A stretch of DNA of 43,284 nt from a bacterium. GTDB taxonomy: Bacteria > Armatimonadota > Chthonomonadetes > Chthonomonadales > JAMCWF01. Positions 4,355 through 37,203 of the stretch are shown piece by piece (positions within the stretch are counted from its first letter, which is position 1; every line of letters begins with the position of its first letter). Below the pieces are notes generated by a model. That model did not search any database and had not been told where the DNA came from. It worked only from the letters and a program-made list of their open reading frames with translations. Location of the stretch: positions 1-43,284 of the forward strand of contig JAKBZR010000019.1 of the NCBI GenBank assembly GCA_021842405.1, given 5' to 3'. A program made the position numbers and the translations under genes.

Positions 4355-4610
4355 CCTCCCTATGAGAATGTTGAAAAATACCCTAACACACATCGTGTCG
4401 TCATTCCGGGGCCGCGAAGCGGAACCAGGAATCCAGGCGCCCTCTCGCTGGGTTCAACGATATAAAGGTCGTTCGCCCTTTTAGGAGAACAACAGCATCC
4501 CTACCTACCAATAGGTAGGGAACTGGATACCCGCCATCCACTCCACTGGAGTGGAGCCATGCGGGAATGACGAAGTGACCGGATCCAGCAACTTTTTAAC
4601 AACCTCCCTA
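4355..4610. mobile_element. MITE-like element, family 2
   Basis: The left end contains GAATGTTGAAAAA (4366-4378) and the right end ACTTTTTAACAACC (4591-4604), which are imperfect inverted termini shared with other family-2 copies. The interior holds GTCATTCC-type palindromes and, at about 4521-4576, the module that reads CCACTCCACTGGAGTGG inside a larger ATTCCCGC/GCGGGAAT hairpin. CCTCCCTAT occurs at both outer edges (4355-4363 and 4603-4611) and may be a 9-bp target duplication, although it overlaps the terminus on the right. There is no coding capacity. It separates the GH57 gene from the receiver-like gene. Confidence 0.6.
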
Positions 4611-11582: not shown

Positions 11583-12608
11583 CTAGTTCGCATTCTTCAG
11601 CGGATAAAGCAGCTTTTGTACGGCCGGCGTGTTGAAATTCTGCATCGTTACCACCGTCACGCCGGTATCAATGTGGCGCTGCTGAATCGGCTCCTTCTTA
11701 ATCGCTCGGATCGCCAATTGCACGCCCTCGTATCCCATTTTGTAGGGGTTTTGTACGATCAGCGCTTGAATGACGCCCGCCTTCAGCTTCGCGATCTCGA
11801 TATCGGAGGCGTCAAAACCGACCAGCTTGATTTTGCCCGCCTTACCTTGCTGCTGCAGGGCGGAGGCGGCGCCCTCTACGCCGGATTGGTTGGCCGCAAA
11901 GACGCCGGCCAGGTTCGGAGTGGAGGTCATCATATTCAGCATCCTCTCCAGCCCTTTTTCCACGTTGCTCTCCGAGTAGAGTACCGGCCCCAGGTGAATG
12001 TTGGGATACTTGGCGATCTCCTGGCGGAAGCCCTGCTCCCGCTGATCCGACGATTCGGCCCCCTTGATAAAGGGCATCAGGCCGACCGTTCCCTTGCCGC
12101 CGATCAGCTTAGCGAGCGTATCGGCGGCGATCGCTCCGCCCTTCACGTTGTCGGTCGCCACGAATGCGCTGGAGATGTCGGGCGTAATGCCGGAATCGAC
12201 GGTGACGACCGGAATACCGGCCTGCTGAGCCTGCTTGACGTAACGCACCAGCGCGTGCGCATCGCAGGCTGCCATCACGATGGCGTCTACGCGCCGGTTG
12301 ATGAACGCCTGCACGATGTTGATTTGCTTAGAGACGTCGCGCTCATCTTGCGGCCCGTCCCACAGTATCTCCGCGTTATCCTCCTTCGCCGCCTGCTCCG
12401 CCCCCGCTTTAACCGTCAGCCAGTAAGATTGAAGGGTACCCTTCGGGATGACCGCGATTCGGTACCGATGGGCGCCGCCAGCCTTGCCCCCGTCGCTCGC
12501 TACCCGGCTGGATGATTTGGGGCACCCAGTCGTCGCGACCGCCACGATCGCTAAGCCAATCAGCCACTGCCACTTGCTCCGATTCGCACGCAATGACAAC
12601 GCTCTCAT
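11583..12608 (-). CDS. Sugar-binding lipoprotein of an ABC importer (RbsB-like)
   Basis: The 341-residue protein starts with a lipoprotein signal ending VAVATTGC (Cys29) and continues as a periplasmic-binding-protein type 1 fold: YRIAVIPKGTLQSYWLTVKA, RVDAIVMAACDAHALV, GIPVVTVDSGI, KLVGFDASDIEIAKLKAG and ALIVQNPYKMGYEGVQLA. These are typical of RbsB-type pentose/hexose binding proteins, anchored outside the cytoplasmic membrane. A good AAGGAGATAAGG precedes ATG. It lies 27 bases after the GHMP sugar kinase gene and is probably in one transcript, suggesting that the imported sugar is phosphorylated by that kinase. The last codons touch a family-2 repeat end. No permease or ATPase lies directly beside it. 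Confidence 0.9.
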   Translation of the reverse strand: MRALSLRANRSKWQWLIGLAIVAVATTGCPKSSSRVASDGGKAGGAHRYRIAVIPKGTLQSYWLTVKAGAEQAAKEDNAEILWDGPQDERDVSKQINIVQAFINRRVDAIVMAACDAHALVRYVKQAQQAGIPVVTVDSGITPDISSAFVATDNVKGGAIAADTLAKLIGGKGTVGLMPFIKGAESSDQREQGFRQEIAKYPNIHLGPVLYSESNVEKGLERMLNMMTSTPNLAGVFAANQSGVEGAASALQQQGKAGKIKLVGFDASDIEIAKLKAGVIQALIVQNPYKMGYEGVQLAIRAIKKEPIQQRHIDTGVTVVTMQNFNTPAVQKLLYPLKNAN

Positions 12609-12635
12609 TACCTTATCTCCTTGAATGAAGTTCCG

Positions 12636-14021
12636 TTATATCGGTATCGTTTCAACCGGGGTAAACATCGCCCCTTCCGAAGATCCATCCAGCCGCTCCG
12701 GTTTCAATCCGGTTTGCCGATGGTACTCGGTGCAGATGCGATCCAAAGCACCGTCTTCCTCAGCCCGGTTCACCAGCAGCGCCACCGCCCCGCCGGAGCC
12801 GCCGCCGGTGATTTTGGCTCCGTAAATCCCCGCCTCAGCCCCCTCTTTTTGTGCCAATTCAACCAGCAGATCGGTCTCCGGCGATCCCAGCTCCAGCTCG
12901 TTATAAGCTCGGTGAGCGGCGTGCATTAACTCACCCGCCTCGCGGCCCAGCTCCGCTGTCGGATGCTCACCTGCCGCCTGCAGGATGGAGGCCATTTTCA
13001 GCACCCGCTGGTCCTCCTTGATGGGGTGGCTGGCGCAGGCTCTGACCCGGTATATCTCGTCGGTATCCACCGAGGTGGTCGCATCCGGCAGCTCGCCGTA
13101 CTTTGTAAGGAACTCCCGGCCGGACAGCGTTTCCGGCAATTCGTCATAGATAGCGGCGAGCCGATCCGGACCCAGGTTGCAAAGGTAGCCGTTCAAGTTA
13201 TCGGAGAGCAGCAACTGCGCAATTCGGAATCCCATATAGGCGGCGACTCGCGCCCGGCGATAGCTGCTTCCGCCGACCGAGTGCTTCACCGCCGAGTTGA
13301 TCGCCAGGATTTGCCACTCATCCGGTATCGGTATGAAACCCAGCACATCGTGCGGCTGGCAGCGCAGCTCGATCAGGGCGTCCTGGCGTCCCAGCGCGGA
13401 GGTGACCTGATCCATGATTCCGCAAGGAGCGCCGACGACCCGATTTTCCACCGTCTGGCAAAGTCGAGCCAGCGATAAACCATCCATCGGAACCCGGTAA
13501 AGGTGAGCGATGGCGCGCATAGCGGCCACTTCCAGCGCGGCGGAGGAGGAGACGCCGGCGCCGGCCGGCACCTCGCTGGAGACCAGGAGGCTCAGCCCAC
13601 CTACCCGATCGCCCTGCAATCGCCCCGATTCCGCCAGCGCCATCAGGCATCCCAGTATATAGGCGGCCCAGTGAGTGGCCGGATCTTGTTGAAATAGGGC
13701 GGCTGCCTCATCGAGCGAAAGGAGGCCGCTTTGGGGGAAAAGCGCTTGCCGGCTGAAGCGGGCCTCCGGGTTGAACGGCTCCGCGGCCGGCAGCGTGGTG
13801 CGAACCTCGATCCAATCGTCTTCGGTGCGCTGGGCGACCACGTAGGCGGAATGCGCCAGCGTCGCCTCCAGCACCACCCCGCCGGAGTAGTCGGAGACGC
13901 CGCCGATGAAATCGAGCCGACCCGGCGCTCGGGCCAGCACGCACTCTCCAGCATTGAAGTACCGCTGCAACTGCGATCGGCTGGGTTGACCTGCGGTCGG
14001 CAATGAAAAGAGATCGGGCAT
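12636..14021 (-). CDS. GHMP sugar kinase (L-arabinokinase/galactokinase type)
   Basis: From ATG at 14021 the product is 461 residues. Motif 1 is ARAPGRLDFIGGVSDYSGG (30-48). This form, GRLDxxGGxxDYSGG, is closer to plant L-arabinokinases than to bacterial GalK, whose signature is GRxNLIGEHTDYN. Motif 2 is VPAGAGVSSSAALE (151-164). The putative base Asp204 is in CGIMDQ, and motif 3 is KITGGGSGGAV near residue 415. It should phosphorylate C1 of a free sugar with ATP in the cytoplasm; L-arabinose or galactose are candidates. A TTG start at 14075 would add 18 residues. It is upstream of, and 27 bases from, the sugar-binding lipoprotein gene. Confidence 0.85.
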   Translation of the reverse strand: MPDLFSLPTAGQPSRSQLQRYFNAGECVLARAPGRLDFIGGVSDYSGGVVLEATLAHSAYVVAQRTEDDWIEVRTTLPAAEPFNPEARFSRQALFPQSGLLSLDEAAALFQQDPATHWAAYILGCLMALAESGRLQGDRVGGLSLLVSSEVPAGAGVSSSAALEVAAMRAIAHLYRVPMDGLSLARLCQTVENRVVGAPCGIMDQVTSALGRQDALIELRCQPHDVLGFIPIPDEWQILAINSAVKHSVGGSSYRRARVAAYMGFRIAQLLLSDNLNGYLCNLGPDRLAAIYDELPETLSGREFLTKYGELPDATTSVDTDEIYRVRACASHPIKEDQRVLKMASILQAAGEHPTAELGREAGELMHAAHRAYNELELGSPETDLLVELAQKEGAEAGIYGAKITGGGSGGAVALLVNRAEEDGALDRICTEYHRQTGLKPERLDGSSEGAMFTPVETIPI

Positions 14022-14111
14022 CGCTTCATCCCTGGAAATTGGTGTTTTCGCTCTGATGTTCTTGGAGATGCTCAAGTATAAAGGAAACCGGGCTGGTTGT
14101 CAAACCGGAAT

Positions 14112-14219
14112 GAGTTCAGTTTTACGGGAATCATTTACGACCATATTGGATGCACCCCCCCAGTCCCTCTTAATCCCCTCCCCCGTAAACGGGGGAGGGG
14201 ATTAAGAGGGACTGGGGGG
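14112..14219. repeat. Family-1 left end followed by a perfect 30-bp hairpin
   Basis: GAGTTCAGTTTTACGGGAAT opens a family-1 end at 14112, matching the copies at 29704 and 30526. It runs into a perfect inverted repeat: arms 14156-14185 and 14190-14219, 30 bp each, with loop TAAA. No right terminus was found, so the element is incomplete or has a different internal partner. It lies upstream of the GHMP kinase gene and could block transcription reading in from the GloVer genes. Confidence 0.7.
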
Positions 14220-14313
14220 CAAGATAAAAGTACCGCCGCTAAACTCCTTCCCCCTAGGAGGGGGAAGGGCGCATACGACTTCGGTGCAGCGGTCGGCTTG
14301 CCGGTAGGCAATG

Positions 14314-14509
14314 GACTGGATTCCCGCCATCCACTCCACTGGAGCGGAGCCATGCGGGAATAACGAAGCGGCGGGCTCCGGCGAATCTTACAGCGACTTC
14401 TTAATCGAGTTTTGATGGCGCGCCATCTTCGCACTGGCCGCTTTGCAATCCCATCATAAAACTTCCGATTTTATGGCTAGAATTGCTCGATAGTGCCCAT
14501 CGTGACCGA
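14314..14509. repeat. 196-bp direct repeat, copy 1
   Basis: This copy matches 14674-14869 at an offset of exactly 360 bases. It begins with the GACTGGATTCCCGCC hairpin module and continues through GTTTTGATGGCGCGCCATC and GCTAGAATTGCTCGATAG. There are about a dozen differences. Its first part and the preceding 70 bases (14244-14375) also recur at 18917-19048. It is non-coding. Confidence 0.8.
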
Positions 14510-14559: not shown

Positions 14560-14763
14560 TTAAGTGGTTGTTAAAAACACTGGAACCTATCGCTTCGTCA
14601 TTCCCGCGAAAGCGGGAATCCAGCTCCCCTGCCTAGCGGCTTGCCGGGTCGCTCATTTCGATCGGTAAAGATAGACTGGATTCCCGCCATCCACTCCACT
14701 GGAGTGGAGCCATGCGGGAATGACGAAATAGCGGGCTCCGGCGAATTTTACAACGACTTCTTA
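14560..14763. mobile_element. MITE-like element, family 2
   Basis: CTTAAGTGGTTGTTAAAAA opens at about 14559 and TTTTACAACGACTTCTTAA closes at about 14763, an imperfect inverted pair. Inside are GTCATTCCCGCGAAAGCGGG and the CCACTCCACTGGAGTGG module. The stretch GCTTGCCGGGTCGCTCATTT (14639 onward) occurs in reverse complement near 30150-30172, tying this copy to the larger element there. Confidence 0.55.
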
Positions 14764-15017: not shown

Positions 15018-16220
15018 CTATGAGGGACTAACAGGGGGTTCCGATGTTGTTTGTTCCGGTGTTTGCTTGCTTGGGGATGCTGCCCCCTTGATTTCAAAGA
15101 TGGTTCCATCATTGTTTGCGCCGCCTCGATAGGTTACTCCGTAGAGATTGCCATGCCTGTCCATAATTAGAGCATAGGGCCTGGCCCCATCCTTCCCATT
15201 GAAACTGTGCAGGGTGGTAAAAGTTCCAGTGGAAGTAAGTTTGAAGACGGTTCCGTTATCATGTGCCTCCCCTCCTAATGTTGTGCCGTAAAGATTGCCT
15301 TGACCATCAATTACCAAAGTATCTGGAGAAGCGCTATCCTTCCCATGGAAAATGTGCAGAATATGGAAGATTCCATTCGGAGTCAGCTTGAAGATTGTTC
15401 CACTCCAGTATGCGCCACCAGCTAAAGTTGTTCCATATAGGTTGCCCTTATTATCTATGAGTAGAATTCGTGGCCTACCCCCGTCAGTCCTCAAATTGAA
15501 CTTGTGTAGTATAGTGAGCATTCCATTGGGGGCTAGTTTAAACCCGGTTCCACACCAATGTTCATCACCGATTTTGCCGCCAAATTCTGTTGCTCCATAG
15601 AGATTGCCATGATAGGGTATAAGCAACGAACAGGGTAGGCATCCATCCTTCCCATCGAAACTGTGAATGGTGGTTAGAGTTCCGTTCGGATATAGTTTGA
15701 AGACGGTTCCATCATTACGTGCACTTCCTGCCTTAGTTGTCCCATAAAAATTGCCCTTCTCATCTATGAGAAGAGATATAGGTTCACCCATGCTTCCTGT
15801 AAAGCGGAATAAGGTAGTGAAGGCTCCGTCTTGGGATATCCTAAATATAGTCCCGTAGTGTGTACCACTTCCTTCTGTTGTTCCGTAGAGATTGTCCTGG
15901 CTATCCATTAGCAGAGCATCGGGGAATCCATTCTTTTCATTGAAACTATGTAGAATGATGAGGTCTCCGCTCGGCGTGAGTTTGAAGACGGTTCCAGCAT
16001 CGAATACGCTACCTCCGTAAGTGTTCCCATAAAGATTGCCCTTCCTGTCTCTAAGTAGGGCATCAGGCCACTTTCCATCCTTACCGTTAAAACTGTGCAG
16101 GGTAATGAAAGTTAGCTTCCTGCCAGCCGCCTCACCACTCGATGATGCAAAAATGACCGCTGCGATCGTGATAACGATTGATAGCAGCAGCAATCCTCTT
16201 TCCCGTTTTTGGGAGACCAT
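15018..16220 (-). CDS. Secreted GloVer-repeat protein 1
   Basis: From ATG at 16220 the product is 400 residues. An N-terminal signal peptide (VSQKRERGLLLLSIVITIAA then SSSGEAAG) is followed by seven tandem repeats of about 46-52 residues of the Gloeo_Verruco type (TIGR03803-like). Each repeat follows the pattern LHSFNGKDG...LL.D..GNLYGTT..GG....GT.FKL.PNG. Seven units fit a seven-bladed beta-propeller, probably extracytoplasmic. The C-terminus is a Ser/Pro/Thr-rich tail. The start is fixed by GAGGAGGATCGAAAA before ATG. The function of the family is unknown; binding or surface roles are likely. The final repeat is almost identical in DNA to that of the next gene. Codon and base use is visibly more AT-rich than the kinase and trp genes. 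Confidence 0.85.
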   Translation of the reverse strand: MVSQKRERGLLLLSIVITIAAVIFASSSGEAAGRKLTFITLHSFNGKDGKWPDALLRDRKGNLYGNTYGGSVFDAGTVFKLTPSGDLIILHSFNEKNGFPDALLMDSQDNLYGTTEGSGTHYGTIFRISQDGAFTTLFRFTGSMGEPISLLIDEKGNFYGTTKAGSARNDGTVFKLYPNGTLTTIHSFDGKDGCLPCSLLIPYHGNLYGATEFGGKIGDEHWCGTGFKLAPNGMLTILHKFNLRTDGGRPRILLIDNKGNLYGTTLAGGAYWSGTIFKLTPNGIFHILHIFHGKDSASPDTLVIDGQGNLYGTTLGGEAHDNGTVFKLTSTGTFTTLHSFNGKDGARPYALIMDRHGNLYGVTYRGGANNDGTIFEIKGAASPSKQTPEQTTSEPPVSPS

Positions 16221-16248
16221 TTTTCGATCCTCCTCAAGAAAATGCGGT

Positions 16249-17418
16249 CTACCCGTTATTTGGGGTAGCCGCCCCCTTGATTTCAAAGATGGTGCCATCA
16301 TTGTTTGCGCCGCCTCGATAGGTTACTCCGTAGAGATTGCCATGCCTGTCCATAATTAGAGCATAGGGCCTGGCCCCATCCTTCCCATTGAAACTGTGCA
16401 GGGTGGTAAAAGTTCCATCAGGAGCAAGTTTGAAGACGGTTCCGTGACCGCTTGCGCCCCCCTTCGGTGTTGTTCCGTAGAGAATACCCTGATTGTCTAT
16501 GATAAGATAATGGTGGCCTTGCCCCTCCATTACATTGAAGTTGTGGAGAGTGGTGAGTGCTCCGTCCGTGGCCAACTTGAAAATAGTTCCATCACCGTGT
16601 GCACCACCCATATATGTCGTACCATAGAGATTACCTTGCTTATCTATAATCAAAGCTTCGGGCCAATTCCCATCAATTTTATTAAAACTATACAGGGTGG
16701 TGAGTACGCCGTCTGGCGCCAGCTTAAAGATCACTCCGTCACCGTGTATCCCACCTTGATTTGTTGTTCCATAGAGATTTCCTCGGTCATCACTGATCAG
16801 AGTCCATGGGCCTTCACCATCCTTCGAATTGAAGTTATGGAGGGTGGTGAGTACTCCGTCTGGGGCCAGCTTGAAAATTGTTCCAGCAAAATGTTTGCCA
16901 CCTCCACCCGTTGTTCCATAGAGATTGCCATAACTGTTCATGATCAAACTATCGGGCCACCTCCCATCCCTAAAGATGTGCAGGGTGATGAGATTTCCAT
17001 TCGGGACTAGCTTGAAGACAGTTCCGAAACCGTATTCACCACCATCACCACAAGTCCCATAGAAATTGCCCTTCCCGTTCATCAGCAGACAATTAGGCGA
17101 ACCTCCATCACTCCCATCGAAGCTGTGCAGAGTGACAAAATTTCCATTCGGGTCAAGCTTGAAGATTGATCCGTAGCCTCCGGAGTATTTTATTCTAATA
17201 TATATACCACCATCACCACAAGTCCCATAGAAATTGCCCTTCCCGTCCATAAGCAAACAATTAGGCGAAACTCCATCCTTACCATTAAAACTGTGCAGGG
17301 TGATGAATCTTATCTTCCTCCCAGCCGCCTCGCCGCTCGATGATGTAAGCACGACCGCTGAGATCGCAATAGCAACTGATAGCAGCAACAATCCTCTTTC
17401 CCGTTTTTTGGCGACCAT
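16249..17418 (-). CDS. Secreted GloVer-repeat protein 2
   Basis: From ATG at 17418 the product is 389 residues and is built like its neighbour downstream: a near-identical signal region (VAKKRERGLLLLSVAIAISA, SSSGEAAGRK) and seven GloVer repeats. Repeats 1 and 2 share GKGNFYGTCGDGG, a cysteine-containing variant not seen elsewhere in the cluster, pointing to duplication of a single blade. The last repeat (GARPYALIMDRHGNLYGVTY) matches protein 1 exactly. The same GAGGAGG ribosome binding site and the same ~30-base spacer occur before this gene and the next, so the genes arose by tandem duplication with their spacers. It ends abruptly after IFEIKGAATPNNG, without the tail of protein 1. Confidence 0.85.
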   Translation of the reverse strand: MVAKKRERGLLLLSVAIAISAVVLTSSSGEAAGRKIRFITLHSFNGKDGVSPNCLLMDGKGNFYGTCGDGGIYIRIKYSGGYGSIFKLDPNGNFVTLHSFDGSDGGSPNCLLMNGKGNFYGTCGDGGEYGFGTVFKLVPNGNLITLHIFRDGRWPDSLIMNSYGNLYGTTGGGGKHFAGTIFKLAPDGVLTTLHNFNSKDGEGPWTLISDDRGNLYGTTNQGGIHGDGVIFKLAPDGVLTTLYSFNKIDGNWPEALIIDKQGNLYGTTYMGGAHGDGTIFKLATDGALTTLHNFNVMEGQGHHYLIIDNQGILYGTTPKGGASGHGTVFKLAPDGTFTTLHSFNGKDGARPYALIMDRHGNLYGVTYRGGANNDGTIFEIKGAATPNNG

Positions 17419-17449
17419 TTTTCGATCCTCCTCAAGAAAATGCGGTCTA

Positions 17450-18688
17450 TCAGTCGTTTGGGGTAGCCGCCCCCTTAATTTCAAAGATGGTTCCATCATT
17501 GTTTGCGCCACCCTGCCAGGTTGTTCCATAAAGATTACCTTGACTATCAATAAGAAGATCTGATGCATAAGACCCATCTTTTCTATTGAAGTTGTGCAGG
17601 ATGGTAAAGGTTCCATCCGCTGATAGTTTGTATACTATTCCGCAATTATGAGTGCCACCTTTTAGTGTTGTTCCGTATAGATTACCTTGTTTATCTATGA
17701 TTAAAGATTGCGGTTCTTCTCCATCTTTTTTATTAAAATTATGCAAGGTGGAAAATATTCTATTTGATAATAATTTAAAAACAGTTCCATAATCGTGCGA
17801 TCCACCCCATTCTGTTACTCCATAAATATCTTCATGTTTGTCGAGAATAGTAATAGACGGACATTCACCATCCTTCTCGTTGAAACTATGTATGCAATTG
17901 AGAGTTCCTTTCTCGGTTAATTTGAAAATAGTACCGTCGCTATGAAAACCACCACCCGTTGTTCCATAGATATTGCCTTCACTATCCATAAGCAGAACCC
18001 AAAGCCCACTTCCTTTCGTCACATTAAAACGATGCAAGATGATTAAAGATCCTTTCGGATTTAATTTAAAGATTGTACCGTATCTATATACTTTACCCCC
18101 TAAACCATTCGCTTTTCCTCCTAACGTAGTACCATAGAAATATCCTTTTTTATTCATAAGTAGCTCAGAAGGTCTGCCTCCATCGGTTTTTCCATTGAAA
18201 CTATGCAATATAGTAAGGGTTCCATTCAATGAAAGCTTGAAGATAGTTCCACAACCATATGCACCACCTCGATGTGTTGTACCGTATAGATTGCCCCTAC
18301 TATCCATTAATAAAGCATAGGGGGCGGATCCATCCTTTCCGTTGAAACGGTGCAGAAAGGTTATTATTCCATTCGGAGCCAATTTGAAAATGGTTCCATG
18401 ATCATTTACACCATCCTCATTTGTTATCCCATAGAGATTACCACGTCCATCAATGCATAAACTATCAGGAGTACCAGGCAAATTGAAACTATGCAAAATA
18501 AGGAAAGTTCCGGGTATACCTGCCATCTTAATTCGATGATTCAATTGCGAGTGATTAGGAATCGATAAAGCCTGAGAATTACTAGATTTACCACCTACAC
18601 CTCTATTCTGGCATCCAAATATGACCAATGTGACCCCAATAACGGCCGCCAACAGCCGCAATACACTGCCACGGTTTTTACCAGCCAT
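17450..18688 (-). CDS. GloVer-repeat lipoprotein 3
   Basis: The 412-residue protein begins with a lipoprotein signal ending LVIFGC (Cys26), so it should be lipid-anchored, unlike the two freely secreted paralogues. A 28-residue linker precedes seven GloVer repeats. Repeat 3 carries an insertion (GGKANGLGGKVYRYGT), and repeats 1 and 4 are short. The end, GGANNDGTIFEIKGAATPND, matches protein 2. It is the most diverged and most AT-rich member and is first in the transcription order, with GAAGGTGG upstream of ATG. It may anchor or assemble the two following proteins; that is only an inference from order and signal type. Confidence 0.83.
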   Translation of the reverse strand: MAGKNRGSVLRLLAAVIGVTLVIFGCQNRGVGGKSSNSQALSIPNHSQLNHRIKMAGIPGTFLILHSFNLPGTPDSLCIDGRGNLYGITNEDGVNDHGTIFKLAPNGIITFLHRFNGKDGSAPYALLMDSRGNLYGTTHRGGAYGCGTIFKLSLNGTLTILHSFNGKTDGGRPSELLMNKKGYFYGTTLGGKANGLGGKVYRYGTIFKLNPKGSLIILHRFNVTKGSGLWVLLMDSEGNIYGTTGGGFHSDGTIFKLTEKGTLNCIHSFNEKDGECPSITILDKHEDIYGVTEWGGSHDYGTVFKLLSNRIFSTLHNFNKKDGEEPQSLIIDKQGNLYGTTLKGGTHNCGIVYKLSADGTFTILHNFNRKDGSYASDLLIDSQGNLYGTTWQGGANNDGTIFEIKGAATPND

Positions 18689-18773
18689 CTTTAGCCACCT
18701 TCACCAATACCCCTCCAATTATTACAGATAACGAATATTAAAGGTTTTAGATGGGATTGTCAAGGGTTTGAAA

Positions 18774-19048
18774 GAGTTCAGTTTTGTGGGAGTGATTTTC
18801 GTTCGCCCCCCATCCTAGCCTTCCCCCTCTCAGGGGGAAGGGATCCGGACTGGGCCTTGCTGATTACTACGTCGCATCATCCACATCCTTGCCTTTCACC
18901 TCGCAACCGTTCCGTGCTCCTTCCCCCTAGGAGGGGGAAGGGCGCATACGACTTCGGTGCAGCGGTCGGCTTGCCGGTAAGTCATGGACTGGATTCCCGC
19001 CATCCACTCCACTGGAGCGGAGCCATGCGGGAATGACGAAGCGGCGGG
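18774..19048. repeat. Family-1 left end fused to a hairpin-module tract
   Basis: GAGTTCAGTTTTGTGGGAGT at 18774 is a family-1 left end. 18806-18876 matches, in reverse complement, the interior of the element at 26668-27100 (about 26819-26892), including GGGATCCGGACTGGG. From 18917 to 19048 the sequence repeats 14244-14375 with about four mismatches. No right terminus is seen. This patch fills the whole gap between the TolB-like and GloVer genes; no gene is present. Confidence 0.7.
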
Positions 19049-20439: not shown

Positions 20440-21501
20440 CTATCTCCGCTCGAAGATGCGTCGGCTCAGCGAATTGACGATGACGGTGAAGAGTAAAATA
20501 ATCCCCACAATCACCCCCTGCCACTCCGACGGACGCGGTATCGAGCTCAAATTGATGGCGGTGGTGATGATGTTCACCAGGCAGGCGCCGATTACCGCTC
20601 CGTAGACCGATCCCTCTCCACCGCTCAGGCTGCATCCGCCGATCACCGCCGCCGTGATCGCGACCAGCTCACCGCCGCTGCCGGAATCGGCATATCCCTG
20701 TCGCGTATAGCCCGCATACAGTATGCCGGCAACTCCAGCGAAAAGCCCGCTGGCGCCGTAGGCGAACGCCTTGATTTTAAAAATAGATATCCCGGATAAG
20801 CGGGCCGCCTCTTCGTTGCCGCCTAGCGCATAGACATAGCGGCCGGTGCGCGTCCTCTTCATCACCCAAGCCGCTAAAATCACCAGCGGCAGCACGATAA
20901 TGACCGGCAAGGGGATCGCATAGATCGTCCCGTGAAAAAGTGAGCTGTTGCCCAGCGCGACAAGCGGGTGAAATCCTTCCAAGTCAATCGGCAGCTCGTT
21001 ATTGCTGATCCGGGCCACGCTGCGCAGCAGGGTGAGCGAGGCCAGCGTCACCACAAAAGGGGGTAGTCTGAAAAAGTGGATGAAGCCGGCCTGTATGATT
21101 CCGATAAGGAGCGCGATGAGCAAGACTGCCACGCAGCTCACCAATATGGCGATGTTCGGGATCATCCCCCGATTGACGAACCCGTTCAGCATCAATCCCA
21201 TAAACATACCGGTCACGCCGATGATGCTGCCTACCGACAGGTCTATCCCGCCGCTGATAATGACGATTGCCTCTCCGATCGCGAAGATGGCCAGCATCGC
21301 GATCTGGCGGGAGAGGTTGAGGAAGTTTGACTGGCCGAAAAAGGAATCGCGCTCAGAAGTGAAAAAGAGATAGAAGCAGAAAAGTATATTGACGCCCAGG
21401 ATGATATTCTCCCGGGAAGTCGCGATCTGCTTCCAGCGCAATATTACGGATGGGCTGATGGATTGAGTTGTTGAGGGATCGGCTTCAGGACGAGGTGACA
21501 C
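20440..21501 (-). CDS. RbsC-type sugar ABC transporter permease
   Basis: The 353-residue membrane protein, with about 8-10 hydrophobic helices, carries the branched-chain/ribose permease signatures GEAIVIISGGIDLSVGSIIG and YVYALGGNEEAARLSGI, the latter facing the ATPase. It imports a sugar bound by the lipoprotein encoded just upstream. GTG at 21501 is a good start, with TGAGGA a few bases before it; TTG at 21504 is also in frame. The start overlaps the 3' end of the binding-protein gene by about 17 bases, showing tight coupling. No ATP-binding subunit (RbsA-type) is encoded anywhere in the window, so the ATPase must be supplied from elsewhere. Confidence 0.92.
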   Translation of the reverse strand: MSPRPEADPSTTQSISPSVILRWKQIATSRENIILGVNILFCFYLFFTSERDSFFGQSNFLNLSRQIAMLAIFAIGEAIVIISGGIDLSVGSIIGVTGMFMGLMLNGFVNRGMIPNIAILVSCVAVLLIALLIGIIQAGFIHFFRLPPFVVTLASLTLLRSVARISNNELPIDLEGFHPLVALGNSSLFHGTIYAIPLPVIIVLPLVILAAWVMKRTRTGRYVYALGGNEEAARLSGISIFKIKAFAYGASGLFAGVAGILYAGYTRQGYADSGSGGELVAITAAVIGGCSLSGGEGSVYGAVIGACLVNIITTAINLSSIPRPSEWQGVIVGIILLFTVIVNSLSRRIFERR

Positions 21502-22570
21502 CAATTTTCCTCAGTCCATTGTAAAACTCATTTACATTGGCCGGTGTGACCACTTGCACGCCGGTATCCAGGATGTTGTCCGCCGGCATGTGCAGCGCCT
21601 TTTCGGCGGCCGGTAAGCCTTTCCGGTTGAGCAGATAGAGGAATTTGGTTACCAGATAACCGAAATAGTAGGGCTTTTGAACGACGGTTGCGTCAATTTC
21701 ACCATGTCTCAACGCGGTGATGGTTCCCGGCTCCGCATCGAAGCAGATAATTTTCACCTTATTGCGGATTCCAGCCGATGTGACCGCATTGACGATTGCC
21801 GGCCCGTTATAGGAGTAAAATCCGACGAAACCGTTTATGTGCGGATACTTGTTAATGGCGTCGGTGACGTTATTGGTTGCCACCACCTTATCCTTATTGT
21901 CCTCCAGCACCTCCAGGAGGTGCACATTGCTGCCCTTTATGGCATCCTTGAATCCATCCACCCGTAATCGGGCGTTATCGGCGGTGAGGTTGCCCACGAA
22001 CCCGATCAGGTTTGCAACCGGGTATTTCGATTTAGGGAAGTACTTCAGCGCCAGCTTACCGGCCGTCTGCCCGCTCACATAGTTATTGGTGCCGATATAA
22101 GCGATTCGGTCACAGTTCACGACATCCGAATCGTAGGTGATGACCGGAATGCCTTTCGCGATTGCTTTGTTAATGTCGGGACCCAGCGCTTTGGCGTCAA
22201 TGGCTGATATCGCGATCCCATCCACCCCTTTAGCCACCGCCGATTCGAACATATTCTTCTGAATGGTTGGGTCGGCCGGCTCCGGACCTTCCCATGAGGC
22301 GTTGCAATGCAAGTCAGCCCGAGCTTTATCCATTCCCTTTACCATCACCGACCAGAAGGGAGCGATGCCGTTGGTGATAATCTGAATGTTGATTGGACCG
22401 GTTGGCTTGCGGGGCTTGTCGAACAACGAGGCGATGAGCTGCTTTTGTGAGGCGGACGGTCCGATGGTGACGGTGTGGCTTCTCACTGGCGGTTTTTGGC
22501 AGGAAACTATAGCCAGGCTCGCCAGGCCTGCTAAAACGATGCCGGAATACCGGCGCATATTCAAAACCAT
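21485..22570 (-). CDS. Sugar-binding lipoprotein of an ABC importer (RbsB-like)
   Basis: The 361-residue protein begins with a lipoprotein signal ending LAIVSC (Cys24). A type 1 periplasmic-binding fold follows: INIQIITNGIAPFWSVMVKG, GVDGIAISAIDAKALGPDI, GIPVITYDSDV, IAYIGTNNYVSGQTAGKLA, KIICFDAEPGTITALRHGEI and VVQKPYYFGYLVTKFLYLL. It should deliver a monosaccharide to the permease whose gene overlaps its end. GGAAGGGGAG upstream of ATG is a strong ribosome binding site. It is only a distant paralogue of the binding protein at 11583-12608, so the two probably bind different sugars. Confidence 0.9.
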   Translation of the reverse strand: MVLNMRRYSGIVLAGLASLAIVSCQKPPVRSHTVTIGPSASQKQLIASLFDKPRKPTGPINIQIITNGIAPFWSVMVKGMDKARADLHCNASWEGPEPADPTIQKNMFESAVAKGVDGIAISAIDAKALGPDINKAIAKGIPVITYDSDVVNCDRIAYIGTNNYVSGQTAGKLALKYFPKSKYPVANLIGFVGNLTADNARLRVDGFKDAIKGSNVHLLEVLEDNKDKVVATNNVTDAINKYPHINGFVGFYSYNGPAIVNAVTSAGIRNKVKIICFDAEPGTITALRHGEIDATVVQKPYYFGYLVTKFLYLLNRKGLPAAEKALHMPADNILDTGVQVVTPANVNEFYNGLRKIGVTSS

Positions 22571-24325: not shown

Positions 24326-24964
24326 GTGCGAAAGTGGGATAAGGAGTCTATTGCAGCCGAGATTCACGCTTTACACGAAGCCGGGCAGGATCTTAACTAT
24401 TCAACCATCAGCCGGAGTTACATTGCGCTTCTGCGCGCCGCTGCCCGATACTTCGGCTCTTGGCGTAGCGCGGTGGAGTACGCCCAGATCGACTACGATT
24501 CGGTACGGAAATATCGGCGTTGGACCCGAGAGCGGATCATCGAGCGTATCCAGGAACTGCATAAACGGGGAGAGGATTTAAGCTGGCGGCGTGTGAGCTC
24601 CGCCCTCGATCCACAACTCGCGGCCGCAGCAACCAAGCAGGTACATTTCGGTTCCTGGCGCGCTGCCATTCACGCGGCTGGCCTTGACTATGATGTGATT
24701 CGGCGGTATCAGCGCTGGGATCACGACACGGTGATCAGGAAACTTCAGTCCATGCATGCGGAAGGTAAGAGCCTGAACGCAAAGAGCGTAGAGCAAGCCG
24801 ACATCACGCTGATTACCGCAGCCCGCCGACGCTTTAAAACCTGGGATCGAGCATTGACTGCTGCCGGATTGAATGCGAAAGAGATCGTGTTGCGATCTCC
24901 ATACCGGCGAAGCGGCAACAAAAACAAAAAGGAAAAGGTGGCCGGTAAGGTGGCCGCAAAATAG
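24326..24964 (+). CDS. Triple homing-endonuclease-associated-repeat protein
   Basis: The 212-residue protein is made of three tandem units of about 62 residues. Each begins with a basic residue and Trp (KWDKESIAAEIHALHEAG; RWTRERIIERIQELHKRG; RWDHDTVIRKLQSMHAEG) and ends with an aromatic-Gly/Lys-Ser/Thr-Trp block (FGSWRSAVEYAQIDYD; FGSWRAAIHAAGLDYD; FKTWDRALTAAGL). This matches the helical repeat that often accompanies HNH homing nucleases (PF18780-like) and is thought to bind DNA. No HNH or other nuclease motif is present. A Lys-rich tail (SGNKNKKEKVAGKV) follows. GTG is the start, with AAGGGGAAG upstream. A DNA-binding role is inferred; targets are unknown. A strong hairpin terminator follows. 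Confidence 0.75.
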   Translation: MRKWDKESIAAEIHALHEAGQDLNYSTISRSYIALLRAAARYFGSWRSAVEYAQIDYDSVRKYRRWTRERIIERIQELHKRGEDLSWRRVSSALDPQLAAAATKQVHFGSWRAAIHAAGLDYDVIRRYQRWDHDTVIRKLQSMHAEGKSLNAKSVEQADITLITAARRRFKTWDRALTAAGLNAKEIVLRSPYRRSGNKNKKEKVAGKVAAK

Positions 24965-30140: not shown

Positions 30141-30525
30141 CTTTACCGATCGAAATGAGCGACCCGGCAAGCCGTGCGAGCGAAACAATTCCCCATTGGT
30201 AATAATCAGATTGCTTCGTCGCTTTGCGACTTCTCGCAATGGCAGGTGAACATCCGCATCCCGGCAAGCCGCTAGACAGGGAACTGGATTCCCGCCATCC
30301 ACTCCACTGGAGTGGAGCCATGCGGGAATGACGAAGTGGCAGGATACACCGACTTTTTCAACAACCACTTAAGGGGGAGGGTGTCATTGCGAGCGAAGCG
30401 AAGCAATCTCTTCCCCCAGCACTCTCACAGAATTGGGAAAAGAGTTGTCTGCCTGGCGGCAGACAGGGAGTGAGGGACTTCTGCCTAAATTACCCAGAGA
30501 ACTGAACTCTTATGTGGGCGAGAAA

Positions 30526-33437: not shown

Positions 33438-35363
33438 CTACAATTCAATCCCCATTTCAATAAGAAATCTCGAAGGCTGTTTTTGCCATCCAAAAACTTG
33501 CGCCGAAAAAGTTAATGTTAAACTCTCTTGAGCACGCGTTATTGCAACGAAGCAGTTACGCCGTTCTTCCTGCATCTCAAGCGAATGGTCACCCTTCTTC
33601 ACGGCAGCCCAACTAGGAAGTTGATCCTCTACCATCCCTATCAGATAGACATGCCCAAATTCCATGCCCTTTGACGCATGAATGGTGAAACACGGAATGG
33701 CATCTGGTGGTTTCAACGGTGTTTTGGATGTAAGGTCGAGTTCGTGAAGGAACTGATGAAGGCTTACTTCTTCACCTTCGAACTTCTTGGTGACCTCCGA
33801 CAGAATCTGCATCCAGACTTCACGCTCTTCCTCAAATTCATTGAACGCGCTCTCCTCTTGCTGTATTCCATCTTGCAATTCAGTCGCCCACACCAATAGT
33901 TTATTCGCGAAGTCGCGGTAATTTAGTGAAGTAAGTAACGGCTTGATGCCGGCATCAAGTAAGTCTCGCGTTTTCTTCTCCAAGACTTCCCGGCGTCTTA
34001 CCTCATTCAACCATGCACGCAAAAAGTCCTCTCCATCTGCAGATGCGCGGGAGAGAACCGGGGGCACTTCTACGCGTATACCTTCAATTTCATAAAACGC
34101 CTTTGAAAGCCGCGCGAGAGATTGTTTGTCTTCTTTCGAATTTACGAGACGAAGGATAGCATGCAGCATCCTGAGCGGGGCACTTCTGAACTCATCTTTG
34201 CGGGCTGCAAAATAAACTGGAATACATGATTCTTCAAGTTTGTGCCCCGCCAATTCCACAAGTCTCTTCGTCCTTGCAAGCACGACGCAGTTTACACGAT
34301 CTTGCGGTTCTTTCTGTGCTATGTCCTCTGCAAGCCACGCGATTTCTTCATCAATGTTGCCAAAATGGAAGACACGCACGACACTTCCGCTTTCGCCCTG
34401 TTTGACAGCCGTTAACGGCTTCTTGCCAGCGGATCGATTGAGATTTTTCTCAATCAATGCATTGGCAAGTTCAATAACGAGACGTGGACAACGGTAGTTT
34501 TCCGGAAGTTGCAATTCAGAAATGGAGAAATCGTCACGTAGCGATTGAATCCACTTGGGACTTGCGCCGTTCCATTGATAGATAATCTGATCATCATCCG
34601 CCACAACAAACAACGTGGAGGAGTCAGGCTTCGCGATAAGAGAGAGAATCCGGTATTGCGAATGATTAGTATCCTGAAACTCATCAACAAGGATATGTTT
34701 ATAAACTTTCCGGATGTGCTTGACGAGGAAGGGATGTTTACTCAGAAGGTCAAGAGATTCGGCGATCAGACTGGGAAAATCGAGGGAATTTGTGTGACGA
34801 AGTGCTTCCCTGTAGGCAGTGTAGACCCGTGCCAATGAGATGGCGTTTTCTACATTGGATTGCTGAAGTAAAACTTCCGCCTCCTCCGAGGGAACACACT
34901 GATCAAGAAGTCTGGTAACCGCTGGAAGAAGTTGGGCAGCCATGAAATGTTCAGGCAGCGAAGTGGAAAGGTCCTTTCGTAATTGCTCCAGAACATCATC
35001 AAGCAAGGCTTCTCGATCGGCATCATTCGAAAGTATCTGGAAATCCGGACGGAAACTGAGATGGTTGCCATGCTGCTGAAGAAGTTCAGCCGCATAGGAA
35101 TGAAAGGTTGTAAGTCGCACGCGACTGAATTCTTTGGGAACCAGTTCTTCGACCCTGCTACGCATCTCAGCGGCGGCCTTGTTGGTAAAGGTTAGTGCAA
35201 GGATTCTGAAATACTGGCCTTTGGATTCCTCAAGGATTCGGGCAATACGGTAAGTCAGAACTCGTGTCTTGCCTGAGCCAGGACCAGCCAAAACCAGAAG
35301 AGGCCCTTTGTTCCACAATACGGCTTCACGCTGGTTTTCGTTCAGTGAGGATAAATCGAGCAT
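33438..35363 (-). CDS. gajB: Gabija protein GajB, UvrD/Rep-type helicase
   Basis: The 641-residue protein is a superfamily 1A helicase. Motifs are Q motif LNENQREAV, Walker A LAGPGSGKTR (25-34), LTFTNKAAAEMRSR, motif II ILVDEFQDTN, motif III VVADDDQIIYQWNGA, LPENYRCP, TIHASKGMEFGHVYLIGM and motif VI VAITRAQESL. In Gabija, GajB works with the nuclease GajA in a large complex that blocks phage. It is longer than the ~494-residue Bacillus cereus GajB. The start is fixed by GGAGG five bases before ATG 35363, one base after the gajA stop codon, so translation is coupled. Base composition is clearly more AT-rich than panB or GH2 beside it, which suggests transfer. A plain UvrD role is unlikely because of the pairing with gajA. 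Confidence 0.92.
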   Translation of the reverse strand: MLDLSSLNENQREAVLWNKGPLLVLAGPGSGKTRVLTYRIARILEESKGQYFRILALTFTNKAAAEMRSRVEELVPKEFSRVRLTTFHSYAAELLQQHGNHLSFRPDFQILSNDADREALLDDVLEQLRKDLSTSLPEHFMAAQLLPAVTRLLDQCVPSEEAEVLLQQSNVENAISLARVYTAYREALRHTNSLDFPSLIAESLDLLSKHPFLVKHIRKVYKHILVDEFQDTNHSQYRILSLIAKPDSSTLFVVADDDQIIYQWNGASPKWIQSLRDDFSISELQLPENYRCPRLVIELANALIEKNLNRSAGKKPLTAVKQGESGSVVRVFHFGNIDEEIAWLAEDIAQKEPQDRVNCVVLARTKRLVELAGHKLEESCIPVYFAARKDEFRSAPLRMLHAILRLVNSKEDKQSLARLSKAFYEIEGIRVEVPPVLSRASADGEDFLRAWLNEVRRREVLEKKTRDLLDAGIKPLLTSLNYRDFANKLLVWATELQDGIQQEESAFNEFEEEREVWMQILSEVTKKFEGEEVSLHQFLHELDLTSKTPLKPPDAIPCFTIHASKGMEFGHVYLIGMVEDQLPSWAAVKKGDHSLEMQEERRNCFVAITRAQESLTLTFSAQVFGWQKQPSRFLIEMGIEL

Positions 35364-35364
35364 A

Positions 35365-37089
35365 TTAACCTCCGGCCAATTGGACGACACGGGTGATGAT
35401 GTCTCGAATAGTCTGGGGAATGGCGTCGACACTGCGTTGTCGAATCTCCGTTGCCAATGCTTGAGCAAAGGCAGGTTTACCTCCGACCTGCTTAATGGCC
35501 GCCTTAATCAACAGATCAGCCTTCTTGACAGTATCGCCAGCCGCTTGGGTAGTAATATGATTTTGGTCTGAAGAGGGTACCATGTTAGTTATAAAATTAT
35601 TATACCCATTGTACCAGAATTCTTGTTCTATATCTGGATGAACCAATGTCCGAGCTCGATCAGCAAGAGTTTCACCACTTTCAAGATAACTATTTGCACG
35701 ATTGATATAATTATTTCCGGCTGCATCGCCATCAGCCATCAAGAACCACTGTATACCTAATGCTTTCGCAAATTTGATAAAAGGTTCGCCTTTGTCTATA
35801 GCTTGGCTAATTTCGACAACAGAAATGCTGGTCTGATCCTGAGAATATCCCATTATTTCAAAAAGCAGGGGCATAAGATGAAAATCGGATTCCCCTTCCA
35901 CCAGTAGCCAGCAGCGAGAGAACAGATAATATCCTCTTGTGATACGAATGCTGTAGTTTATCGCCTGAATCTCACGAGGAGTCAGATGATGATCTTCTAT
36001 TCGTCCTACTCTCGTTTCCCCATTATCTTTGTATAGCCTACGAATCGCCTTGATTGGAACTTTAGAGACAAGATCACCGGAGTGTGTCGTAACAAGAATT
36101 TGACCGGACATACTTTCCAGAAATGAACCAAGAGAGCGTATCGCTGAAGGATGAAGGTGTGCTTCCGGTTCTTCAAGCGAAAGAATTGCGGTGGATTCAG
36201 GAGTATAGGCTTCGGCAAGGTTAGTAGCTGCGAATGCTTGGAAGAGCATCAATACTGAAAGGCTCTGGGTTCCCTCACCATGCCGATTAAGGGGAAGTTT
36301 AGCGCCGCTGGCGGATTTCAGGTGTACTTGTATCTTTCCGACCATATCGAATACCCGTGTTGGAATTGCTTCCAACACTACGGGATTTGTCGAAGCCAAC
36401 TGAACCATCCGTCCGGCATCGGCGATTTTCTGCATGACTTCTGCTAGTCCCGTGTTTGCACCGATGACGGAGTCGTTGACCTCTTGAAGCATCTTCTCGA
36501 GTTCTTCCCGCTTATCGTCGGGGAGTTGGATTGATTTCAGGAAACCGGACCAGAACTGCCCGCGCTGTCCGAACTCCTGCGAAGCATCGCGGAGCGCCGA
36601 AAGGAAAAAAAGTGGAACAAAATTTGAAATCAGATTGAGCGGTGTCGAGCTTTTGGGTATTAACTCATGTCCGCTTGAATTGAGAAAGATCCGCTTTGTT
36701 TCAAACGATGCAGAATCAGGATTGAAAGCTCCTTCCGCCTGTAACCAGATATGGGACAATCCATTCGCCTCCAACTGAATTACTTCACTCATCTGCCGGA
36801 TAATGGCATCAGGCCATTCATTTTCCTGTTCCTCTGCGAAATGCAGGGTAATTTTGATCGGTTGTGCCGTTTGCGGCGTGGCATTCGCATCAACCAGATA
36901 AAAATCGTATTCGGAAAATTGGCTGGCATGTCGGAAGCCAAAGCTTCGTGTCAGAGCCAGCTTTATAGCTTCCAGTACGGTTGACTTGCCCGTGTTGTTC
37001 TCGCCAATAAGCACCGTCAACCCATCAAGAGGAAGATTCAACGAGCGGATTCCGCGAAAGTTCTCTATCTTGAGCTCTACCAGTTTCAT
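35365..37089 (-). CDS. gajA: Gabija protein GajA, OLD-family ATPase-TOPRIM nuclease
   Basis: From ATG 37089 the product is 574 residues, close to the 578 of the type GajA. The N-terminal ABC-like ATPase has Walker A IGENNTGKS (28-36), signature region LNRHGEGTQSLSVLML (267-282), Walker B AILSLEEPEAHLHP (301-314) and an H-loop THSGD (His336). The C-terminal TOPRIM domain has LLVEGESDF (Glu398 and Glu400), MADGDAAGNN (Asp453 and Asp455) and HPDIEQEFW. Key catalytic residues are present, so the nuclease should be active. GajA nicks DNA and is restrained by nucleotides in healthy cells; phage infection releases it. A class 2 OLD protein with an adjacent UvrD-like gene is the definition of Gabija. 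The longer upstream frame to 37176 has no coding features. Confidence 0.93.
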   Translation of the reverse strand: MKLVELKIENFRGIRSLNLPLDGLTVLIGENNTGKSTVLEAIKLALTRSFGFRHASQFSEYDFYLVDANATPQTAQPIKITLHFAEEQENEWPDAIIRQMSEVIQLEANGLSHIWLQAEGAFNPDSASFETKRIFLNSSGHELIPKSSTPLNLISNFVPLFFLSALRDASQEFGQRGQFWSGFLKSIQLPDDKREELEKMLQEVNDSVIGANTGLAEVMQKIADAGRMVQLASTNPVVLEAIPTRVFDMVGKIQVHLKSASGAKLPLNRHGEGTQSLSVLMLFQAFAATNLAEAYTPESTAILSLEEPEAHLHPSAIRSLGSFLESMSGQILVTTHSGDLVSKVPIKAIRRLYKDNGETRVGRIEDHHLTPREIQAINYSIRITRGYYLFSRCWLLVEGESDFHLMPLLFEIMGYSQDQTSISVVEISQAIDKGEPFIKFAKALGIQWFLMADGDAAGNNYINRANSYLESGETLADRARTLVHPDIEQEFWYNGYNNFITNMVPSSDQNHITTQAAGDTVKKADLLIKAAIKQVGGKPAFAQALATEIRQRSVDAIPQTIRDIITRVVQLAGG

Positions 37090-37203
37090 CAACAGATCAT
37101 ACCTTTCGAAAACAATAAATCCGAGAACGGAAGTAAGGTAAAACCTCTTCGTGGGAAATACTAAATCCCAATCCAATCACATGGAGAAAATTTTACCATG
37201 TCG

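Follow-up and report, generated by a model that had tools for sequence, protein, structure and literature searches.

A tandem triplet of seven-repeat GloVer genes in an Armatimonadota bacterium and the predicted fold of its products

Repetitive beta-propellers amplified from single blades have been surveyed previously (PMC9218822), including a 14-blade chain that makes two rings. The Gloeo_Verruco (GloVer) tandem repeat proteins, NCBIfam family TIGR03803, are spread over Acidobacteria, Proteobacteria, Armatimonadota and other groups, and the main text of that survey does not mention them. They resemble the surveyed propellers in having near-equivalent blades and 7- and 14-blade forms, but in the survey blade numbers form a continuum with a bias towards a median, whereas the GloVer counts fall mainly on 7 and 14. 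Among solved structures the nearest fold is virginiamycin B lyase (Vgb; PDB 2z2n and 2z2p), which likewise has seven blades but is an asymmetric enzyme, in contrast to GloVer proteins, where no blade-specific conserved residue is seen. The PLL and PHL proteins of Photorhabdus (PDB 5mxe, 6rgg and 8q81) are propellers for which sugar binding is a feature, and they have no family in common with the proteins studied here. The ScyD/ScyE family (NF033206) shows weak similarity to two of our three proteins, A and C, at 22.7 and 36.1 bits against a cut-off of 80, so that they are not members.

Here we describe three GloVer genes in a 43,284-nucleotide stretch of contig JAKBZR010000019.1 (the window). 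Like other members of TIGR03803, their products have the family repeat far above the cut-off, in seven copies, and are predicted to be secreted; they depart from the family in lacking both a C-terminal sorting domain and an Ig-like tail, in the putative lipoprotein among them and in forming a low-GC tandem triplet.

Three genes, their transcription and export

The three genes adjoin each other on the minus strand with intact reading frames and are read in the order A-B-C:

17450..18688, minus strand: gene A, a putative GloVer lipoprotein of 412 aa with seven repeats, transcribed first (TIGR03803 E 1.1e-96)
16249..17418, minus strand: gene B, a presumably secreted GloVer protein of 389 aa with seven repeats (TIGR03803 E 3.9e-106)
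15018..16220, minus strand: gene C, a presumably secreted GloVer protein of 400 aa with seven repeats (TIGR03803 E 9.9e-99)

Each protein matches TIGR03803 in 7 separate stretches (316-347 bits, E 1e-96 to 4e-106), well above the curated cut-off of 44 bits. A, B and C thus belong to a known family and are ordinary for it, and an earlier reading of the sequence alone had described them correctly as three tandem GloVer genes with exactly seven repeats each, in position, strand and counts. A whole-genome search placed all 21 confident GloVer repeats within A, B and C; outside them there was a single weak match. The listed open reading frames of B and C begin too far upstream, since their long N-termini come from out-of-frame reading of the last blade of the preceding gene. 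The true starts are ATG 17418 for B and ATG 16220 for C, each preceded at 8 nt by a perfect AGGAGG (17432-17427 and 16234-16229, respectively).

The intergenic gaps are 31 bp between A and B and 28 bp between B and C, and a well-placed sigma-70-like candidate promoter lies upstream of A, although promoter-like sites are no commoner in the region than in shuffled sequence:

18735..18763, minus strand: candidate promoter of A, TTGACA-17-TAATAT, 10 of 12 matches

At the two ends of the cluster the gaps are much wider, with 370 bp of repeat-rich DNA between A and a PD40 gene that lies upstream, and about 940 bp between C and a galactokinase-like gene, which makes it likely that A-B-C is a single transcription unit. 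Membership of the PD40 propeller gene in this operon was considered and ruled out by the 370-bp gap with its repeats and promoter; its orthologues in two other genomes also lie on contigs apart from their GloVer genes.

The N terminus of A carries the following elements:

18611..18622, minus strand: lipobox-like I-F-G-C, residues 23-26 of A, found in the translation by inspection
18515..18610, minus strand: linker from the presumed lipid-modified Cys to the propeller of A, with low pLDDT to about residue 50

The Phe at position -2 of this motif is unusual. The linker, some 30 residues long, precedes the ring, whereas the signal peptides of B and C are of the ordinary kind, each ending near SSGEAAG. 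By inspection, these features support the earlier description of the first product as a lipoprotein and of the other two as ordinary secreted proteins, and we infer that A is anchored by a lipid.

One anchored and two free propellers had also been taken to suggest a surface assembly. Neighbouring GloVer open reading frames are present in 19 of 118 loci, at least two of which are frameshift fragments. Three genes in succession in an Acidobacteriaceae locus (L096) all have ordinary signal peptides, four genes stand in tandem at L094, and L092, L099 and L121 each have two lipoproteins; the pattern of one anchored plus two free members was not found in any other tandem cluster of the 118 loci. As the other clusters are all-secreted or all-lipoprotein, tandem GloVer genes recur but mixed anchoring is no conserved design, and the idea of a surface assembly was not borne out in that form. 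The three proteins might still assemble with each other or with a partner, with the lipoprotein as anchor and B and C as the outer parts of a surface complex, and the tight spacing, the one candidate promoter and the mixed anchoring are what such a complex would lead one to expect. We regard this as decidedly unlikely, because the arrangement is not kept at the loci named above, most sampled GloVer loci have no adjacent second copy, and tandem duplication by itself accounts for what is seen.

Predicted fold and repeat number

AlphaFold2 models of A and C were built from a 73-sequence alignment. The model of A (mean pLDDT 86.9, pTM 0.84) has 28 strands arranged as seven four-stranded blades, and that of C is of similar quality (mean pLDDT 89.2, pTM 0.86). 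In A, the N-terminal strand is built into the last blade as its fourth strand, the usual 3+1 "velcro" closure:

17474..18508, minus strand: propeller of A, in which strand 61-67 closes the last blade (373-405), from the strand list of the model

Low confidence is found mainly in the signal peptide, the linker of A, an insertion loop of A near residue 195 and the C-terminal tail of C. The models cover A and C, and B is 58% identical to C with the same repeat layout. The prediction supports closed, 3+1 sealed seven-bladed beta-propellers for A and C; these models and the Foldseek matches agree with the propeller fold that had been proposed from the repeats, and neither model took another form.

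The top Foldseek match for both proteins was Vgb, with a target TM of 0.85 for A and 0.80-0.83 for C at an identity of 12-14%. The best matches further include gluconolactonases, DFPase and Drp35 and the propeller lectins PLL and PHL, which reach a target TM of about 0.67-0.69 with C at an identity of 12-15%. Searched by sequence, the PDB gave no convincing relative, and Pfam gave weak propeller-type matches only, SGL and Lactonase among them below threshold.

We counted repeats in two sets of complete open reading frames. The first comprised those with at least three repeats from 79 loci and the window (n = 102), and it was ranked by a seven-repeat query and is thus biased against short forms. 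Seven repeats were found in 95 of the 102, A, B and C included, and fourteen in one; elsewhere alone the figures are 92 of 99 and one. The other six include frameshift-split neighbours (4+4 at L120, 5+3 at L083), a frame broken by an ambiguous base (L081) and a protein in which a degenerate first blade can be seen (L094). Where the flanks of these loci hold a second GloVer gene, it likewise has seven repeats. The second set consisted of relatives in the same phylum, mostly of the same order, taken on any partial match and not selected for length, and a gap of two spacings was read as one missed blade. Here, 28 complete frames had seven repeats, 4 had fourteen and twelve had other numbers. Among these twelve, L152 and L163 are frameshifts, L135, L148, L150 and L171 reach 7 or 14 when degenerate blades are counted, and the exceptions that stand after inspection are L143, L155 and L157. 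The frameshift-split genes at L083, L120, L152 and L163 may be assembly errors in repeats or decaying genes.

Repeat number hence does not vary freely among relatives but is 7 or 14, matching the number of blades in the predicted fold and in agreement with one ring or two. This indicates that the family is built in units of one ring. Since seven is a family-wide property, three sevens in succession are to be expected and are not special to this locus.

The variable face and possible binding

Conservation was examined in 122 seven-repeat GloVer proteins with 854 blades. At each conserved position the degree of conservation hardly differs among the seven blades, the residue composition at each position is likewise near-uniform from blade to blade, and no residue conserved in one blade alone was seen in this set. 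An enzyme with a single central site is expected to show blade-specific conserved residues, and the uniform conservation thus gives no sign of a catalytic centre. This bears directly on the alternative that A, B and C are extracytoplasmic enzymes, lyases or lactonases, whose active site would lie in the central channel. The best structural matches, Vgb, SMP-30/gluconolactonases, DFPase and Drp35, are in keeping with such a role, as are the sub-threshold SGL and Lactonase matches, but sequence identity to these enzyme folds is just 10-18%, and an asymmetric metal or acid-base site would need the kind of single-blade residue that the 122 proteins do not show. We therefore consider an enzymatic role very unlikely.

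The seven match positions with the highest entropy (20, 35, 42, 36, 18, 40 and 17) are without exception within the DA and BC loops or next to them, and in any propeller these two loops belong to the same face. Variable positions were chosen by entropy, and the face was assigned from propeller topology and not from model coordinates. Tyr, Trp and His make up 14-24% of residues at six of these positions and 8% at position 17, against a background of 7.6%, whereas the variable positions of the opposite, bottom-loop face have 1-4%; the odds ratio for the family is 11.6. In the 21 blades of the window, these residues occur at 36 of 125 places on the face versus 6 of 83, and with Phe included the odds ratio is 6.0 (p 1e-5). 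Pairwise identity among A, B and C is 76-80% at scaffold positions and 15-24% at variable-face positions; the bottom-loop variable positions likewise differ (26-33% identity), so that the excess of divergence on the face is modest. The size of the aromatic enrichment is moderate. A Cys occupies the variable-face position 42 in 15% of blades (A2, A6 and C4 in the window, and L081), and some relatives (L081) have a C....C insertion in the DA loop; disulphides across blades are possible.

Judged from these residue patterns, the variable aromatic face could be a surface for multivalent binding carried by a constant frame, and variable aromatic loops suit protein-protein contacts too. Elsewhere in the family there are fusions to Ig-like, FG-GAP, IPT/TIG, CBM96 and RHS modules, which fits an extracellular role. 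Two genomes of the same order encode proteins of more than 2000 aa with seven GloVer repeats (L162 1-6321 and L169 2931-8999), the former also with a CBM96 module and RHS/YD repeats. In the neighbourhood of A, B and C, no gene points to a substrate. The distant flanks of the cluster (11583-14075 and 20440-22570, minus strand) hold sugar-type ABC transporter pieces (binding proteins and a permease) and the galactokinase-like GHMP kinase, and no ATPase gene was identified beside these transporter pieces.

The reading that we prefer, and which we hold to be evenly balanced between right and wrong, is that the tethered ring and the two released ones serve as binding modules that are multivalent and non-catalytic. 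A small operon, tandem-duplicated within this lineage, would make three envelope proteins, each a single closed seven-bladed beta-propeller; A would be held at the membrane by its lipid and flexible linker, and B and C would be released beyond the inner membrane. On a scaffold identical in kind across seven blades, each blade would present the same variable, Tyr/Trp/His-rich loop positions on one face. By analogy with propeller lectins, the rings may bind a ligand, most likely a glycan or other extracellular polymer, and the three copies, having diverged on the variable face, might recognise different or modified ligands. Both binding and ligand class are inferred.

With a clear predicted fold, a ring of constant size and a candidate surface for binding, what was an uncharacterised repeat becomes a family open to testing and, if binding proves true, GloVer would constitute a large natural set of seven-fold binders. 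The wider proposal, which is tentative and which we regard as doubtful, is that GloVer serves in nature quite generally as a scaffold for recognition rings, in which the seven-blade frame stays invariant and one hypervariable face, rich in aromatic residues, does the binding. Such rings would be gained, and multiplied by tandem duplication into an exported lectin-like repertoire, and in this genome they would have come in as a low-GC cassette whose three copies then diversified on the face. No paper naming the GloVer family was found in the searched literature and, together with the lack of a convincing PDB relative, this means that the assignment of the fold, the rule of 7 or 14 repeats and the pattern on the face have perhaps gone unreported, although a negative literature search is no proof of novelty.

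Duplication, base composition and surrounding DNA

In the tree, A, B and C are united in a single clade (SH-aLRT 96) in which B and C are paired (87), and the nearest other entry by path is L066. The three genes are lineage-specific tandem duplicates, and self-BLASTN located the repeated DNA as follows:

16025..17708, minus strand: duplicated unit of last blade, intergenic gap, signal peptide and first blade, in copies 17708-17223 and 16508-16025 that are 79% identical in DNA
15071..16445, minus strand: final blades of B (16445-16260) and C (15256-15071), with 95% identity across 186 bp

Blades B7 and C7 are 98% identical, and this near-identity points to a recent conversion or duplication. 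The inner blades show a small excess only of same-position similarity, indicating that amplification of blades overlaps with that of whole genes.

A, B and C have a GC3 of 30-49, compared with 63-78 in most neighbours. Their GC content lies 11.4 points below that of the flanks, a larger deficit than at all 100 other GloVer loci (mean -0.6), and the DNA around the nearest homologue, L066, is about 50% GC. As the genes are AT-rich compared to their surroundings, the simplest reading is that they were probably acquired by horizontal transfer from a lower-GC source. Synteny with L066 is absent, its contig starting inside the GloVer gene, and a search for the empty site in the only congeneric genome (64% complete) gave no galactokinase match and weak PD40 matches.

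Base composition also bears on the possibility that the genes are recently acquired duplicates, triplicated without a selected role while blade and gene amplification goes on neutrally. The low GC3, the outlying GC deficit and the recent near-identity of B7 and C7 are consistent with this, as is the finding that new propellers are amplified continually (PMC9218822). In our view it is unlikely, considering that none of the three frames is broken, that each gene has a good Shine-Dalgarno site and a signal peptide, and that the scaffold has been kept while the loops diverge.

Direct repeats flank the cluster (BLASTN within the window):

14244..14375, minus strand: downstream copy, 97% identical to the upstream copy
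18917..19048, minus strand: upstream copy

We dismissed these as a specific mark of insertion, since related repeats lie elsewhere in the window and genome. They belong to the second of two intergenic repeats ('cattcccgcatggctccgctccagtggagtggatggcgggaatccagt'), which flanks the cluster in direct orientation and is also present at 14671-14727, 4522-4575 and 30262-30344. The other is a palindromic repeat of about 140 bp, found at 14108-14255 and at many genome sites (40 places scored of 410 first-look candidates). At its end it carries 'actgaactc...TTGACA' and may thereby supply a -35 box to downstream genes, among them the galactokinase-like gene and possibly gene A.

Elsewhere in the window, an open reading frame at 24326-24964 (plus strand) carries HNH_repeat, a homing-endonuclease-associated repeat. 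A complete Gabija anti-phage pair occupies 33438-37176 on the minus strand (GajA 37176-35365 and GajB 35468-33438; PADLOC E 8e-180 and 3e-250, respectively); its GC3 of 44-48 is also low and suggests a second acquired unit.
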